From Nocardia sp. BMG51109 (GTDB lineage: Bacteria; Actinomycetota; Actinomycetes; Mycobacteriales; Mycobacteriaceae): 64,000 nucleotides of DNA. Each line of letters begins with the position of its first letter. Position 1 is the stretch's first letter. A program made the position numbers and the translations under genes. The stretch is taken from NCBI RefSeq assembly GCF_000526215.1, contig NZ_JAFQ01000004.1, forward strand, positions 1,674,001 to 1,738,000. Reading direction: 5' to 3'. Under the pieces are notes generated by a model, which made no database searches, had not been told where the DNA came from, and was given only the letters and a program-made list of their open reading frames with translations. Below, in pieces: positions 4,616-56,010 of this stretch.

Positions 4616-7318
4616 TGCGCGAATCACGTCCAATTCCCGAACACCTGTCTCCGCACCGGGATCCACGCCTGCGAGCCGCAGGCGGACGTAGCGGGCGTAG
4701 GACGGAACCGACAAAGAGCCGTCGGTTCCGCGTGCCACGGTGGTCCAGGTGCGGTTGTCCCGGGATATCGCCACCTCGGACGACGGCGGAGGCGGACCGC
4801 TCCATACCGGCGCCACCCGGCTCACGGCGGTGACCGCACCCAGGTCGACGGTGAGGTCGGCGCGGTCGGTGGCCGGTAGCCAGCGGGTGGCGGGATCGCC
4901 GTCGACCGCCGCGGCGGCGTAGTCGCCCGGGCGCTCGGTGGACGCGGCCGCGGTCTTGCAGCGGGCCGCGTCGGAGGTCGGGGTCAGGTCCGGCCGCCGA
5001 GTCGGCAGATCCAGCGACCGGCCCGGATCCACCTGCCGCACACCATTTCCTGTCTCGACCGGCAGCCGCTCCCCCGACCTCAGCGTGACCTCGCTGCGCT
5101 CCGGACCCACCGAGACATCGAAAATCCTTCCCTGCCAACGTAATCCGCGCACCGTAACGCCCGCACTCAGCTGCGGCGGCAACAACGGATCCAGTCGCAC
5201 TCGGTCTTCCCGCCACCGCAACCCGGCCAGCCCGCCGGTGAACTCCTGCACGAAACCACCGGCGAGAGTGGCGAAATCGAATGCCGGCGATCCGGCCAGC
5301 GGATCGGTGGCGCCCGCCTTCTCCCCGCGCGCCTCGGCGAACTGCCCGAAGGGTTCGCGGACGAACGGGCGGGCCGAACGGTCCAGATAGGTGCCCACCG
5401 AACAGCCCGGCACACCGCTCGCGGCCGCATCGATCTGGTGCACCGAATCGGTCATGGCGGGTCCGTCCGGATCGGTGCGCTCGGCGTAGTAGTCCAGCGT
5501 CCGCTCCGCCACCTGCGGCGCCATCGGCCATTCGAGCGGATATTGCAGCAGCACGGTGTCGGCCTGTTTGATCCGCGTGCCACGGTAGCCGTCGTACTGC
5601 AGGAATATCCCGTCTTGCGCGTCGAACGGCATGCGCAGGTGGTCGGCGACGGCGGTCCACTCCGGTGGCGCGGGGGCACCGATTATGCCCGCGGCCGTGA
5701 CGGCATTGCGGAGCGCCACGGCCGCAACGCCGTTCGTGTAGGCGCCGTCGTCCACGCCGTTGCTGTATTCGTCCGGTCCGGCGACATCGCGGACGGAGTA
5801 GCTGCCGTCCGGATTCGGCGTCGCCCGCGCGGCCCAGAACTCGGCCAGGCTCGACATGATCGGCCAGATGCGTTCGCGCAGGTAACCGATGTCCTTGGTG
5901 GCCAGGAAGTACTGCCAGGCGGCGAGCGAGACATCGCCCTGCAGATGGATCTGCGTCACGCAGTGCGGCGGTGACCAGCTGTGGCACTCGCTCCACAGGT
6001 CACCGGTGTGCGCACTGGTCCACGGGTAGAACGCGCCCGGATGTCCGAGCCGCCGGGCATTCTCCCGCGCACCGGGCAGGGTCTCGAATCGGTAGTCGAT
6101 CACCGACCGGGCCAGTTCGGGTCGAAACGCCAGCAGCGCCGGGTACATCCAGATGTCGGCGTCCCAGAAGATCAGTCCGGCGTAGTTGTCACTGCTCAGC
6201 CCGGTGGGCGAAATACTGTTGTCCTGCTGCGGATTCGTCGCCGAGTACAGCGCGTAGAGCGCGCCCCGGACCCAGCGCTGCACGTCCGGCCGGCCGGGCA
6301 CCTCGATATCCGAATCCCACAGCGCACGCCAAGACTTCGCCTGCGCCGCAAGCAGATTCGACCACCCCCGCGCCGCGGCCCGGTGCGCGGCGCCGACCGC
6401 GGCACGGCCCGGATCGGGCGCGGTGCGACCGGTGTCGACGCCGACGAACTTGGTGACCTCGTGCGACCGCCCCGAGGCGACATCCATCGTCGCCTGCCTG
6501 CCGGATTCCCCCGCCCGAGCCGGGCTCCCGGCATCCAGAACCGACGCCACATCTCCGGTCACATTCGTTGTCCTGGTTCGGAATTCGGCCAGGTACGTGG
6601 CGGGGTCCGGGTTCGGCACCGCGATCGGGTCGACGCGGCGCGCCCCGGCGAAGTCGATCCGATCGATGACCGTCAGGCGGCCGCTCCAGTGCGGTGTCGC
6701 GGTCAGATGCACCGCGGCGGCATGCTGATCGGTGCGATCGGTGAGCACGTCGTACACCAGGTCGGTGGCGCGGCCGTCGCGCGTGGTCCAGGTCAGCTCG
6801 GTCCGCACCAGCCCGCAGCGCAGGTACTGCGTCTGCCGGAAATTCGACACCTGAGCGGACGGCGTTGCGGGCGAGAAGGTTTCGTCGCCCACCCCGACCA
6901 GCAGAGTCGACCAGTTCGGCAGCGCCGCGGCGGTCGCCAGTCCGTCGGCGACGGCCGGATCACGCGCGTACAAACCGGCCGCGAACGCGCCGTCGTAGCG
7001 CGGCGTATACAGCGGCCAGCCGGTCTTCTCCCCGGTCTCCGCGTAGCCCGTACCGGCGGGCGGTATCCGCAGTCCGAGATAGCCGTTGCCGACGAACGGA
7101 TGCGCGTCGTAGCCCGCGCCGAACGACGTCGCCGCCGGCGCCCATCCGGGCTGCGTCGATGCACTGTCGCCGGGACAGGGAAAGCCCTGCGGTGCGGCGG
7201 GCGCCCGCGGCACCACCACCACGATCGCGGCGACCACCACCACCGCCCCGATCGCCGCACCGATGCCGATCGGCAATCGTGAGCGGCGACCGGATGCCGG
7301 TCGGGCAGTTGACGCCAC
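4607..7318 (-). CDS. membrane-anchored glycoside hydrolase family 65 protein with C-terminal discoidin-like domain
   Basis: A 903-residue exported enzyme. After a basic start (RRSRLP) comes one hydrophobic anchor (about residues 18-40), then a GH65 beta-sandwich and (alpha/alpha)6 barrel. Visible GH65 landmarks are FWDADIWMYPALL and the general-acid motif GPDEYSNG with Glu517. The tail beyond about residue 770 (WLPATDRADLTVDLG, YARYVRLRL) looks like an F5/8-type C sugar-binding domain. GH65 members act on alpha-glucosides such as trehalose, kojibiose or maltose. The lack of a phosphate-site signature I can recognise and the export signal favour a secreted acid-trehalase-like hydrolase, but this is inference. 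GTG 7318 is the likely start; the open frame to 7573 runs into the riboswitch region. Confidence 0.85.
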   Translation of the reverse strand: MASTARPASGRRSRLPIGIGAAIGAVVVVAAIVVVVPRAPAAPQGFPCPGDSASTQPGWAPAATSFGAGYDAHPFVGNGYLGLRIPPAGTGYAETGEKTGWPLYTPRYDGAFAAGLYARDPAVADGLATAAALPNWSTLLVGVGDETFSPATPSAQVSNFRQTQYLRCGLVRTELTWTTRDGRATDLVYDVLTDRTDQHAAAVHLTATPHWSGRLTVIDRIDFAGARRVDPIAVPNPDPATYLAEFRTRTTNVTGDVASVLDAGSPARAGESGRQATMDVASGRSHEVTKFVGVDTGRTAPDPGRAAVGAAHRAAARGWSNLLAAQAKSWRALWDSDIEVPGRPDVQRWVRGALYALYSATNPQQDNSISPTGLSSDNYAGLIFWDADIWMYPALLAFRPELARSVIDYRFETLPGARENARRLGHPGAFYPWTSAHTGDLWSECHSWSPPHCVTQIHLQGDVSLAAWQYFLATKDIGYLRERIWPIMSSLAEFWAARATPNPDGSYSVRDVAGPDEYSNGVDDGAYTNGVAAVALRNAVTAAGIIGAPAPPEWTAVADHLRMPFDAQDGIFLQYDGYRGTRIKQADTVLLQYPLEWPMAPQVAERTLDYYAERTDPDGPAMTDSVHQIDAAASGVPGCSVGTYLDRSARPFVREPFGQFAEARGEKAGATDPLAGSPAFDFATLAGGFVQEFTGGLAGLRWREDRVRLDPLLPPQLSAGVTVRGLRWQGRIFDVSVGPERSEVTLRSGERLPVETGNGVRQVDPGRSLDLPTRRPDLTPTSDAARCKTAAASTERPGDYAAAAVDGDPATRWLPATDRADLTVDLGAVTAVSRVAPVWSGPPPPSSEVAISRDNRTWTTVARGTDGSLSVPSYARYVRLRLAGVDPGAETGVRELDVIRAPE

Positions 7319-7350
7319 GTCACTCAGGGTGTCACAGTTCAGAGGACCAG

Positions 7351-7444
7351 AGCGACGGTGACGCGGTAACCCGGTGTGATTCCGGGGCGGTCGCGCCACT
7401 GTGATCCGGCATCCGCCGGAGAGCCAGACACCGGCACCGTCGTT
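7351..7444 (+). ncRNA. cobalamin (adenosylcobalamin-type) riboswitch
   Basis: The region carries the conserved core of cobalamin riboswitches: ACCCGGTGTGATTCCGGGG, then CGCCACTGTGA, then the B12 box GAGCCAGACACC (7421-7432). A closing P1 helix pairs 7351-7360 (AGCGACGGTG) with 7435-7444 (CACCGTCGTT). Downstream, GGGGA (7460-7464) can pair with TCCCC (7473-7477), immediately before the AAGGAGG ribosome-binding site at 7479-7485. This suggests translational control of cbtB by sequestering the start region when B12 is abundant. The aptamer is seen directly; the mechanism is inferred. Confidence 0.92.
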
Positions 7445-7491
7445 GCTAGATCGGCTCGCGGGGACGCGACCATCCCCGAAGGAGGACCACC

Positions 7492-21865: not shown

Positions 21866-22297
21866 TTACAGCGAGGCGAGGGCGGCGGCCTCGCGGGCGA
21901 TGTGCGGGGCGCCCGCGGCGACCGACAACAATCCGGCGGCCTTCAGCGCCTGATACCCGCCCACCAGATCGGTGGCCCGATGCAATCCCAGTTGCTGCAA
22001 CGAGGCCGCGGCCAGGCTGGAGGTGTATCCCTCCGAGCAGACGACGATCCATTCCACGTCGTGATCGGTGGCCGAGGCCAACCGGGCCGAACTGGTCGGA
22101 TCCAGCCGCCATTCCAGCACGTTCCGCTCGATCACCAGCGCGCCGGGCAACGTGCCCTCCTTCACGCGCTGCGCCTGCGGCCGGATGTCGACCAATCGCG
22201 CGCCTCTGCCGATCGCCTCCGGCATCTCGAACGCGAAGACCCGCCGCAACTGCGACCGCGCGTTCTCCAACATGGCATCGATCGTCAAGTGGGTCAT
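21866..22297 (-). CDS. rhodanese-like sulfurtransferase
   Basis: A 143-residue single-domain rhodanese. The active-site loop is VVCSEGYTSS with Cys87, and LVDIRP (35-40) is the usual N-terminal rhodanese motif. It transfers sulfane sulfur between thiols. Its ATG overlaps the stop of the cysteine dioxygenase gene (ATGA, 22294-22297), so the two are coupled. The pair probably disposes of excess cysteine and the sulfur species derived from it. Confidence 0.9.
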   Translation of the reverse strand: MTHLTIDAMLENARSQLRRVFAFEMPEAIGRGARLVDIRPQAQRVKEGTLPGALVIERNVLEWRLDPTSSARLASATDHDVEWIVVCSEGYTSSLAAASLQQLGLHRATDLVGGYQALKAAGLLSVAAGAPHIAREAAALASL

Positions 22298-22932
22298 TTC
22301 ACATCGCCTTCGGGCTGGTCGGTGAGGACGGTCCGGGAGCGCCGCAGCGTGCCGTGGCCGGTGACCTCGTAGTAGGACATGGCGGTGAGCGGTGGGGAAT
22401 AGGCGTGCACCGACAGCGTCGGATTCGACGGTTCGGGCGCGCCGGCGAACTGATCGGGCGCGCGGACCACGTCGTGCACCCAGCCGAGCGGGAACGACGC
22501 CTGGTCCCCCGCCGACAGCGTGCGCTGGCGTAATTCCGTTCCGTTCCAACGGAATTCCGATAACGCGCCGCTGAGCACGGTGAGCGCGCCGAGCGAACCC
22601 GCGTGATCGTGCAGTTCGGTGGAACGGTCGGGAACCCAGCTGATCAGCCAGACGTCGACCTCTTCGTCGCTGAGCAGCCGGGCGGCCCAGCGGTTACCGG
22701 CGGGCCAGGTGCCGCCGGCCGGGAACAGGTGGTCGTAGCGCCCGGCCAGCACGTCCTCGGCGCCCTCGTCGGTCAGCCGCAACAGGTCGGCCGGGCGCAG
22801 CCGGGTGGGCAGTGCGGAGGCGACCGGTCGCTCGGTGACCTCGGTGGGGAGCCGGACACCGGCAACCGCCGGAACGGCGGCGGGCGAAGACGCCCGGATA
22901 CGCGCGGGATAACTGACTGCAGAGGAACGCAT
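22294..22932 (-). CDS. cysteine dioxygenase (cupin)
   Basis: A 212-residue type I cysteine dioxygenase. The iron ligands of the cupin are His108 and His110 in TELHDHAGS and His153 in GWVHDVVRAP; the stretch between them (GALTVLSGALSEF) is family-typical. It oxidises cysteine to cysteine sulfinate with O2. The protein is coupled to a rhodanese and preceded by a leader with a short Cys-Cys ORF and alternative hairpins, which suggests regulation by cysteine supply. ATG 22932 has TGGAG 9 nt upstream. Confidence 0.9.
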   Translation of the reverse strand: MRSSAVSYPARIRASSPAAVPAVAGVRLPTEVTERPVASALPTRLRPADLLRLTDEGAEDVLAGRYDHLFPAGGTWPAGNRWAARLLSDEEVDVWLISWVPDRSTELHDHAGSLGALTVLSGALSEFRWNGTELRQRTLSAGDQASFPLGWVHDVVRAPDQFAGAPEPSNPTLSVHAYSPPLTAMSYYEVTGHGTLRRSRTVLTDQPEGDVK

Positions 22933-22935
22933 GAG

Positions 22936-23031
22936 CGAGGCTCCAGGAGAAGTGGGAATGGTCGAGGGCGATTGCGAAGCCTCGACATCGGCCGAGGCGA
23001 ATCAGCCTCGACAACACTCCTGAACGCGCAC
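22936..23031 (-). promoter_or_regulatory. candidate cysteine-responsive leader (attenuator) of the cysteine dioxygenase operon
   Basis: The untranslated leader contains a 9-codon ORF (23031-23002, VRVQECCRG) with two adjacent Cys codons. The sequence GTCGAGGC inside it (23012-23005) recurs at 22986-22979. Segments complementary to it are GCCTCG at 22998-22993, CCTCGAC at 22967-22961, and GCCTCG at 22941-22936 between the ribosome-binding site and the ATG. Several mutually exclusive helices can therefore form, the hallmark of ribosome-controlled attenuation. Polycysteine leaderless short ORFs with this role are known in mycobacteria. Function here is inferred from the layout. Confidence 0.65.
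23002..23031 (-). CDS. leader peptide with Cys-Cys
   Basis: A 9-residue ORF, GTG start at 23031, sequence VRVQECCRG, TGA at 23002. It is 69 bp upstream of the cysteine dioxygenase start. There is no ribosome-binding site in front of it, so it would have to be leaderless; the transcription start is not known. Tandem Cys codons just upstream of a 6-bp hairpin suggest a cysteine sensor. Confidence 0.55.
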   Translation of the reverse strand: MRVQECCRG

Positions 23032-23147
23032 GCGGAAAGTCACGGCAGCGAGTTTAGCAGCGGTTCCACCGGCCGCAAGCATCGTGTCGGATTCCCCACA
23101 TCCGCCGGTGCCGGGCGGGCGCAGCACAGCGCCGGCGCCGCAGATTA

Positions 23148-23939
23148 TCAGCGTCGGCGCTGCAGATTGCGCTCGAAGACCACCCGCAGCCCGTCCAGCG
23201 TCAGATGCGGTTCGTGCCGTTCGATGGTCTCGGACTCGGGCACGATCAGCGGCGCCGTCCGACCGGTGGCCACGACCACGACATTGTCACCGGCGAAGGT
23301 GTCGAGTTCGTCGCGAATGCGGTCGATCAGCCCGTCGACGAGCCCGGCGAAACCGAAGACGGCCCCGGCCTGGATGCACTCCATACTGTTCTTGCCCACC
23401 ACCGAGCGCGGCCTGGTGAGCTCGGCCCGGCGCAATGCGGTGCGCTCCACGATCGCCTCCGTCGCGATCTCCACGCCCGGCGCGATCACGCCGCCGAGGA
23501 ACTCGCCCTTCGCCGACACCAGATCCACGCAGATGGCGGTGCCGAAGTCGACCACGACGGCCGGGGCGTCGAAGCGGTGAAAGGCGGCCAGGCAGTTCAC
23601 GATGCGGTCGGCGCCGACCTCCTTCGGATTGTCCACCAGCAGCGGAATGCCCGTGCGCACACCGGGTTCCACCAGCACGTGCGGCACGTGGCTCCAGTAC
23701 CGGCTCAGCATCTCGCGCAGCTCGCGCAGCACCGGCGGCACCGTGGACAGCGCCGACACCCCGACCACCCGATCGGCCTGATCGCCGATCAGCCCGCGCA
23801 CCTGCATGGCGAATTCGTCGGCGGTCAGCAGCGGATTGGTATGCACCCGCCAGGTCTGCTCGAGTTTCGCGTGCTCGCCGCTCCCGGAGAACAGCCCGAT
23901 CTCGATGCTGGTACTGCGCACGTCGATGGTCAGCAACAT
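23148..23939 (-). CDS. coaX: type III pantothenate kinase CoaX
   Basis: A 263-residue type III pantothenate kinase, catalysing the first step of CoA synthesis. Conserved segments are [41 protein letters not shown] and [14 protein letters not shown]. The N-terminal phosphate loop reads [11 protein letters not shown] (residues 5-15) rather than the consensus DVGNTN; Asp6 is kept. M. tuberculosis CoaX also has a variant here (DVRNTH) and is reported non-essential beside CoaA, so activity of this copy is uncertain. It is the last gene of the panC-panD-coaX run. Confidence 0.93.
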
Positions 23940-55895: not shown

Positions 55896-56010
55896 GGTCA
55901 TGAGTGCCAGCGTGAAGCCCCGGCTTGCTGGCCGGCAACCCTCCTCCGCGGTGGGGTGCTCCGGGTGACGACCGGGCCGCTGCCCGACCGGGCACGGCAA
56001 GCGCGGACTC
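55896..56010 (+). ncRNA. SAM-IV riboswitch
   Basis: The sequence GGTCATGAGTGCCAGCG, GCCCCGGCTTGCTGGCCGGC, AACCCTCC, CGCGGTGGGGTGCTCCGGG, TGACGACC and finally GGCAAGCGCGG reproduces the conserved core of actinobacterial SAM-IV riboswitches in order. Immediately downstream GGACTCC (56005-56011) pairs with GGAGTCC (56028-56034), which overlaps the aptamer end and can act as the expression switch before the start codon at 56054. It implies repression at high S-adenosylmethionine. Confidence 0.93.

Follow-up and report, generated by a model that had tools for sequence, protein, structure and literature searches.

A Cys-Cys short ORF as a probable cysteine-responsive translational attenuator in front of a dioxygenase-rhodanese operon of Nocardia and its relatives

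The window that we analysed, a stretch of 64,000 nt from the genome of Nocardia sp. BMG51109, carries on its minus strand a compact leader lodged between a type III pantothenate kinase gene and a pair of overlapping genes, a cysteine-dioxygenase-like gene and a single-domain rhodanese gene, beyond which lies a lysyl-tRNA synthetase gene (Table 1). As judged from its sequence, the product of the first gene of the pair is cysteine-dioxygenase-like: it scores 36.9 bits against PF05995, for a cut-off of 23, matches solved cysteine dioxygenases (8qfl and others) with an E-value of 2.7e-13, and has HDH and YSPP in common with 8qfl in the alignment. The rhodanese has 2hhg as a solved relative. A second dioxygenase-like and rhodanese pair, with 43% identity, is present in the same genome (G000:C4:12456-13191), and our scan of the genome detected no leaderless Cys-Cys short ORF (sORF) at this second pair. 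The leader gave no Rfam match at gathering score, all three matches in the window lying elsewhere, and NCBIfam returned no family for the sORF peptide, which was doubled to reach 20 residues. The window also holds a SAM-IV riboswitch (55896-56009, plus strand, 110.2 bits) and a Cobalamin riboswitch (7312-7453, plus strand, 37.1 bits).

Table 1. Positions in the window of the leader elements and of the neighbouring genes, in the order of transcription.
Feature	Position	Strand	Remark
Type III pantothenate kinase gene	23939-23148	minus	upstream of the leader
Extended -10 element, TGCTAAACT	23051..23059	minus	7 nt upstream of the sORF GTG
sORF, MTFRVRVQECCRG and stop, 13 codons	23002..23043	minus	GTG 23043 to TGA 23002; probably leaderless
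P0 5' strand, CGCGTGCGC, sORF nt 10-18 (codons 4-6)	23026..23034	minus	pairs with the start-codon region
P1 5' strand, TCAGGAG, sORF nt 21-27 (codons 7-9)	23017..23023	minus	pairs with the SD region
Cys-Cys codons, TGTTGT	23011..23016	minus	in 117/117 leaders analysed, from loci found with the leader model or ranking among the top dioxygenase matches of the genus
Segment 1, CGAGGC, Arg-Gly codons	23005..23010	minus	5' arm of hairpin H1
Segment 2, GCCTCG	22993..22998	minus	3' arm of H1; alternative partner of segment 3
Segment 3, GTCGAGGC	22979..22986	minus	5' arm of hairpin H2
Segment 4, CCTCGAC	22961..22967	minus	3' arm of H2
P1 3' strand, CTCCTGG	22943..22949	minus	overlaps the SD
Shine-Dalgarno (SD) of the dioxygenase gene, GGAG	22941..22944	minus	invariant in 30/30
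P0 3' strand, GCTCATGCG	22928..22936	minus	holds the dioxygenase start codon
Cysteine-dioxygenase-like gene (Pfam CDO_I)	22294..22932	minus	ATG at 22932; PF05995, E 3.4e-9
Single-domain rhodanese gene	21866..22297	minus	PF00581, E 7.7e-11; start overlaps the dioxygenase stop
Lysyl-tRNA synthetase gene	21667-20102	minus	downstream of the rhodanese gene

An earlier note on this DNA had described a 9-codon ORF with two Cys codons. Such a frame does run from the GTG at 23031, but the sORF is better taken as 13 codons from the GTG at 23043, and the bounds of the feature should reach 23043, or 23059 with the promoter. A GTG four codons upstream of the shorter start occurs in all of the first 30 Nocardia loci (the window included, where it is 23043), and in each of them the sORF starts with GTG, counts 13 codons and ends in QECCRG before the stop; ECCRG is found in 86 of 87 further loci. 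A start codon occupies the first position of the leader model in 115 of 117 leaders (104 GTG, 10 ATG and 1 TTG). Among 113 distinct upstream regions, we found T at -16 in 102, G at -15 in 96, A at -12 in 99 and T at -8 in 96. The pattern TANNNT ends 6-7 nt before the sORF start in 71/113, versus 3.2% of shuffled upstream regions (5-8 nt); the strict pattern is unmet in the other 42, often with C replacing T at the first base. None of the 113 regions has an SD-like motif before the sORF. As an extended -10 stands at a constant distance and no SD-like motif precedes it, the sORF is probably leaderless, and we infer from the sequence a transcription start at or adjoining GTG 23043.

The predicted folding energy of the 114-nt leader is -45.6 kcal/mol; shuffled sequences average -35.5 (z -3.25), and 0/200 of them were as good. 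The earlier note had seen that the repeat GTCGAGGC (23012-23005, minus strand) returns 26 nt later at 22986-22979 and that three complementary segments follow (GCCTCG 22998-22993, CCTCGAC 22967-22961 and GCCTCG 22941-22936), the last one between the SD (GGAG 22944-22941) and the ATG at 22932. All of these are in place. Its proposal that a ribosome chooses between helices stands as far as mutually exclusive helices are concerned; it had missed the main helix, in which sORF codons 4-9 pair with the downstream start codon (P0) and its SD (P1). In the window, P0 contains one mismatch (nt 16) and GGAGTG has an alternative partner.

Leaders measure 84-123 nt overall and come in two forms. The long form, with both H1 and H2, spans 105-123 nt in Nocardia and 111-113 nt in five non-Nocardia leaders, while the short form, with H1 only, spans 84-87 nt and accounts for 41/49 non-Nocardia leaders, three others measuring 93-103 nt. 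The short form, seen in Rhodococcus and others, lacks a counterpart of H2 and segment 4. The Nocardia alignment comprises 49 of 68 leaders: from the first 30 loci the window and 13 others were taken in, and the 38 outside the model contributed all but L039, L049 and L104. The non-Nocardia alignment holds 40 of the 49 fetched leaders, without the five long forms, L089, L096, L098 and L100. In the 49 Nocardia leaders, 94.8% of cells are paired for P1, 99.7% for H1 and 97.6% for H2; in 35 distinct short leaders, P1 reaches 95.7% and H1 99.3%. One pair of H2 shows an A-U to G-C double change in 9/49 Nocardia leaders, and one pair of H1 a double compensatory change in 4/35 short leaders. As many double-changed cells as in the real alignments arose in 1/500 shuffles for H1 (short) and 0/500 for H2 (Nocardia); the number of double-changed pairs, one per alignment, was equalled in 262/500 (short) and 464/500 (Nocardia).

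Pairing of segments 2 and 3 is possible in 99.7% of cells of the 49 Nocardia leaders, using U-G in the 10/49 leaders with an altered segment 3, and shows no double change among them. P1 also lacks double changes in the aligned leaders, and the Gln-Glu codons and the SD could be the cause of much of its conservation. As for the GCCTCG at 22941-22936, which had been offered as a further partner of segment 3, 83.0% of cells are paired, yet there is no double change, and of the six pairs one is broken in 18 and another in 28 of the 49 leaders; we rejected this pairing.

Conservation was followed with a covariance model (R1) built from 30 Nocardia leaders. The 30 top dioxygenase loci of Nocardia, the window's own included, all carry the leader; 58 of its 114 positions are invariant in the 30 aligned Nocardia leaders, with a mean column identity of 87%. 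Both the dioxygenase and R1 match 148/148 Nocardia genomes, 30 of which supplied the model; the best match by E-value to the window dioxygenase among them, in G069, has 90% identity. Of 251 genomes drawn from the family, 95 match R1 (21 Nocardia and 74/230 others), in 12 of 31 genera, Nocardia included. The dioxygenase is found at E 1e-20 in 160 genomes of this draw, 72 of them R1-positive, and goes unmatched in 23 R1-positive genomes. Among 150 genomes drawn from the order, all 5 matches lie inside the family. Misses are no proof of absence because large runs use strict filters. From these matches we fetched 38 of the 118 Nocardia genomes outside the model, 20 of them mostly low-scoring by choice, and 49 of the 74 non-Nocardia matches. 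A rhodanese gene lies downstream in 87/87 loci fetched outside the first 30, all selected via the leader model, versus a dioxygenase gene in 73/87, the leader facing the rhodanese without an intervening dioxygenase in 14/87; the presence of the leader thus goes with the rhodanese and not with the dioxygenase. In L072 (L072:390-620), counted among the 73, the leader and rhodanese are kept and the dioxygenase is a remnant of about 59 matched residues.

A motif pattern scan of named genomes returned at least 119 stretches, and the genera among the matches listed are Nocardia, Rhodococcus, Rhodococcoides, Prescottella, Williamsia and Aldersonia. The list further includes an uncultured actinobacterium (L177), as well as two strays (L168, L212). 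Downstream of the 80 stretches examined, we found dioxygenase and rhodanese in 59, rhodanese alone in 12, dioxygenase alone in 5, which end within 631 bases, and neither gene in 4, namely L193 and L215, which end within 136 bases, and the two strays. L192, a Kitasatospora arboriphila record, has a Williamsia-like leader before a 31%-identical rhodanese-like protein, either by transfer or by contamination. Read by eye, other genera of the family have the motif relaxed to CCR with different neighbours, and some of their dioxygenase loci have no Cys-Cys sORF. Of 197 genomes drawn from the class, 86 have a dioxygenase match; several of the 16 loci inspected outside the family have a Cys-codon sORF after an AT-rich -10, as seen by eye and without a control. 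Three of another actinomycete family (L303, L304 and L305) have the five-codon sORF MRCCC, followed by a stop, after an AT-rich -10 and before a dioxygenase-rhodanese operon, and related loci have different Cys-ending sORFs. Altogether, the alignment across Nocardia and relatives that the earlier note had asked for bears out part of its proposal: a Cys-Cys sORF and mutually exclusive helices before the dioxygenase-rhodanese operon are conserved there, with the Cys codons retained and the stems conserved and in places covarying.

On sequence grounds, P0 is the informative helix of the leader. In register, 84.6% of its cells are paired in the 117 leaders and 78.7% in the 63 distinct strand pairs; sliding the register by 1-4 nt gives 16.5-56.3%. 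The sORF nt 14, in codon 5, stands opposite the first base of the downstream start codon. Where this codon is ATG, nt 14 is T in 98/101 leaders, the exceptions being L038 and L113, which have C, and L104, in which a 12-nt insert shifts the count. Where it is GTG, nt 14 is C in 9/16 leaders and T, allowing U-G, in 5/16, so that 14/16 have C or T; the remaining two (L093 and L097) have an sORF one codon shorter. The C-G exchange is found in three lineages: Nocardia (L050, L108), a Rhodococcus group (L062, L079, L081, L083, L091, L092) and genus g6 (L094). The association between nt 14 and the start codon has a hypergeometric P of 9e-5 over the 63 distinct strand pairs, uncorrected for descent. 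When whole 3' strands were shuffled among leaders, P0 pairing was equalled in 100/2000 trials; the covariation case for P0 therefore rests on position 14, and the remainder of the helix adds little beyond base conservation.

The 5' strands of P0 and P1 sit where a ribosome stalled on Cys-Cys would be, and folding therefore predicts derepression on cysteine shortage. We modelled the stall by masking the mRNA under a ribosome with its A site at Cys1 and computing what it costs to open -15..+13 of the downstream start for 117 leaders (68 Nocardia and 49 others), of which 14 were drawn. With the ribosome at Cys1, this cost falls from 16.4 to 10.3 kcal/mol in Nocardia (lower in 67/68 leaders) and from 18.9 to 8.5 kcal/mol in the others (49/49), that is in 116/117 overall; the 8-10 kcal/mol of the stalled state is uncalibrated against ordinary genes. 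A ribosome at the stop codon gives 12.1 (Nocardia) and 10.1 kcal/mol (others), more than at Cys1 in 101/117 leaders; read by eye, at least 8 of the 14 drawn leaders then have P0 formed again. Shuffling sORF nt 4-27 in 30 leaders lowers the free cost from 17.0 to 10.8 and the gain from 7.6 to 1.1 kcal/mol, 36/587 shuffles reaching the real free cost. Synonymous recoding of codons 2-9 in 40 leaders gives a mean free cost of 13.4 kcal/mol versus 17.1 for the real ones; 110/800 recodings are as high as the real sequence, and 9/40 leaders beat all their 20. Taken together, the fall in opening cost, the shuffling and the recoding point to derepression by stalling, and hence by cysteine shortage. In the window leader, the cost goes from 11.7 to 9.8, a gain of just 1.9 kcal/mol, so the sign of the switch rests on the family and not on this leader; for 19/20 of its synonymous recodings, opening is at least as costly. 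We also tried SD accessibility alone as a marker of state, and it gave the opposite sign to the whole start region: the mean unpaired probability of the SD drops in the modelled stall from 0.27 to 0.05 in Nocardia and from 0.28 to 0.15 in the others, and in the drawn Nocardia leaders the SD is then mostly sequestered in a local hairpin that involves the opening codons of the gene. Both the weak response of the window leader and the behaviour of the SD speak against derepression by stalling. The unpaired probability of the start codon, on the other hand, rises from 0.14 to 0.59 in Nocardia and from 0.05 to 0.39 in the others.

We therefore consider it likely, from conservation and modelled folding, that control is exerted on translation: the leader would be an attenuator that senses cysteine supply by way of a leaderless Cys-Cys sORF and turns the operon on upon shortage, the 13-codon sORF probably acting as a ribosome-operated switch before the dioxygenase-rhodanese operon. 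In RNA whose sORF is free of ribosomes, P0 would join codons 4-6 to the downstream start codon, and P1 would join codons 7-9 to the SD; both helices would close around H1, and in Nocardia also around H2, and keep the operon off. A ribosome awaiting Cys-tRNA on TGT-TGT would cover approximately sORF nt 10-39 and take both strands away, which would free the downstream start region and turn the operon on. A ribosome that reads through to the sORF stop would have moved downstream, and P0 could re-form. Cysteine shortage would then lead to more synthesis of the dioxygenase and the rhodanese, whose role would be the salvage of sulfur and not the disposal of cysteine.

The earlier note had expected a logic opposite to that of biosynthetic attenuators, in which cysteine abundance raises the operon, read-through and termination opening the start while a stall closes it via the local SD hairpin. 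The modelled stall argues otherwise: a ribosome halted at the Cys codons makes the whole start region cheaper to open in almost every leader, the same sign as in biosynthetic attenuators, the cost is mostly higher at the stop codon than at Cys1, and a ribosome at the stop lets P0 re-form in the majority of the drawn leaders. We thus regard the opposite logic as unlikely, with several observations on its side. The SD becomes less accessible in the modelled Cys stall, the window leader hardly separates the two states, and the enzyme looks cysteine-degrading; that an enzyme which destroys cysteine should be switched on when cysteine is low is paradoxical, and this counts against our preferred explanation. 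Moreover, in a study of R. qingshengii IGTS8 grown on dibenzothiophene and not sulfate (PMC8557817), two proteins fall more than fourfold that are rhodanese or sulfurtransferase by annotation, one of which might be the leader-linked rhodanese.

Control at the level of transcription, with H1 and H2 serving as terminator and antiterminator and the ribosome choosing between 1:2/3:4 and 2:3, or control by Rho, seems improbable to us. All three pairings are retained in Nocardia, as such a device would have them, but 22880-23160 contains 0 terminator-like sites (a stem and a T run) and the short leaders have no counterpart of H2. A functional or arrest peptide, ECCRG, that responds to redox state, a metal or some further signal in place of Cys-tRNA appears more improbable still. 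The nearly constant ECCRG outside the first 30 loci would suit it, and redox status is raised as a possibility for mycobacterial Cys-rich sORFs by Shell et al. 2015 (PMC4633059); against it, the residues flanking Cys-Cys are relaxed in other genera (ECCRP, ECCRF, ECCRR, GCCRR), in other actinomycetes this position is taken by unrelated Cys sORFs, MRCCC among them, and the E, R and G codons fall within the P1 and H1 strands. Returning to the translational attenuator, we tentatively suggest a wider reading, itself somewhat less likely than not, in which a cysteine-starvation switch drives a thiol dioxygenase and a rhodanese: the 'cysteine dioxygenase' would work in sulfur salvage, other thiols or persulfides being oxidised and sulfite recovered, and not in cysteine disposal, and unrelated Cys-codon sORFs would stand at the same place across dioxygenase-rhodanese operons of Actinomycetes as if the control had arisen or been rebuilt repeatedly.

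With this leader, cysteine-codon attenuation would reach beyond mycobacteria, into Nocardia, Rhodococcus, Rhodococcoides, Prescottella, Williamsia and Aldersonia. The leader offers a compact example (84-123 nt) in which an sORF codon covaries, at the level of the base, with the start codon of the gene that it would control. It also carries a counter-intuitive prediction: cells short of cysteine should make an apparent cysteine-degrading enzyme. If this is true, the role of the enzyme has been misread; if not, the same architecture runs with reversed sign. Polycysteine-encoding leaderless short ORFs of mycobacteria are reportedly the subject of Canestrari et al. 2020 (Mol Microbiol 114:93). In the open-licence literature that we searched, we found no account of a Cys sORF before a cysteine dioxygenase. 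The leader would appear to be a conserved cysteine-codon translational attenuator of a kind already known in mycobacteria, with an unexpected, catabolic-looking target.

The leaderless polycysteine sORFs of mycobacteria are published attenuators of the same type (PMC9094748, PMC9031893, PMC13236596), and their forerunners appear in Shell et al. 2015 (PMC4633059) at cysA2/Msmeg_5788, Rv0485/Msmeg_0932 and nirA/Msmeg_4527. Like them, the sORF described here has consecutive Cys codons, is probably leaderless and would be the first ORF of a sulfur-metabolism transcript, is predicted to pair with the downstream ribosome-binding site in a structure that a stalled ribosome would disrupt, and has a rhodanese gene among its targets (cysA2 in mycobacteria). 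It differs from them by having just two Cys codons in 13, within a conserved ECCRG, by its catabolic-looking target, the dioxygenase-rhodanese operon, and by a predicted pairing with the downstream start codon as well as with the SD, which the mycobacterial sORFs are not known to form.

The same genome also has a leaderless-looking CCC sORF, MQTRRELMLTRRRTVDLCRLGGCCCLCV (L289:320-406; G000:C4:1510800-1510886), followed by a 168-aa ORF and then by a 277-aa two-domain rhodanese ORF. It shares with the ECCRG leader its leaderless look and a Cys cluster near the C terminus; unlike it, the CCC sORF is longer and has another ORF before the rhodanese, the likeness being limited to the Cys codons. It resembles the published Cys-rich sORF upstream of mycobacterial cysA2 (PMC4633059), a parallel that favours the attenuator reading. 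A further comparison is with the ilvB1 transcription attenuator of M. tuberculosis, which uses a Rho-independent terminator with a U tract (PMC13236596). As in that attenuator, the sORF codons are proposed here to sense amino acids and the helices are mutually exclusive, whereas the present leader, in which no terminator with a T run was found, would act on translation.
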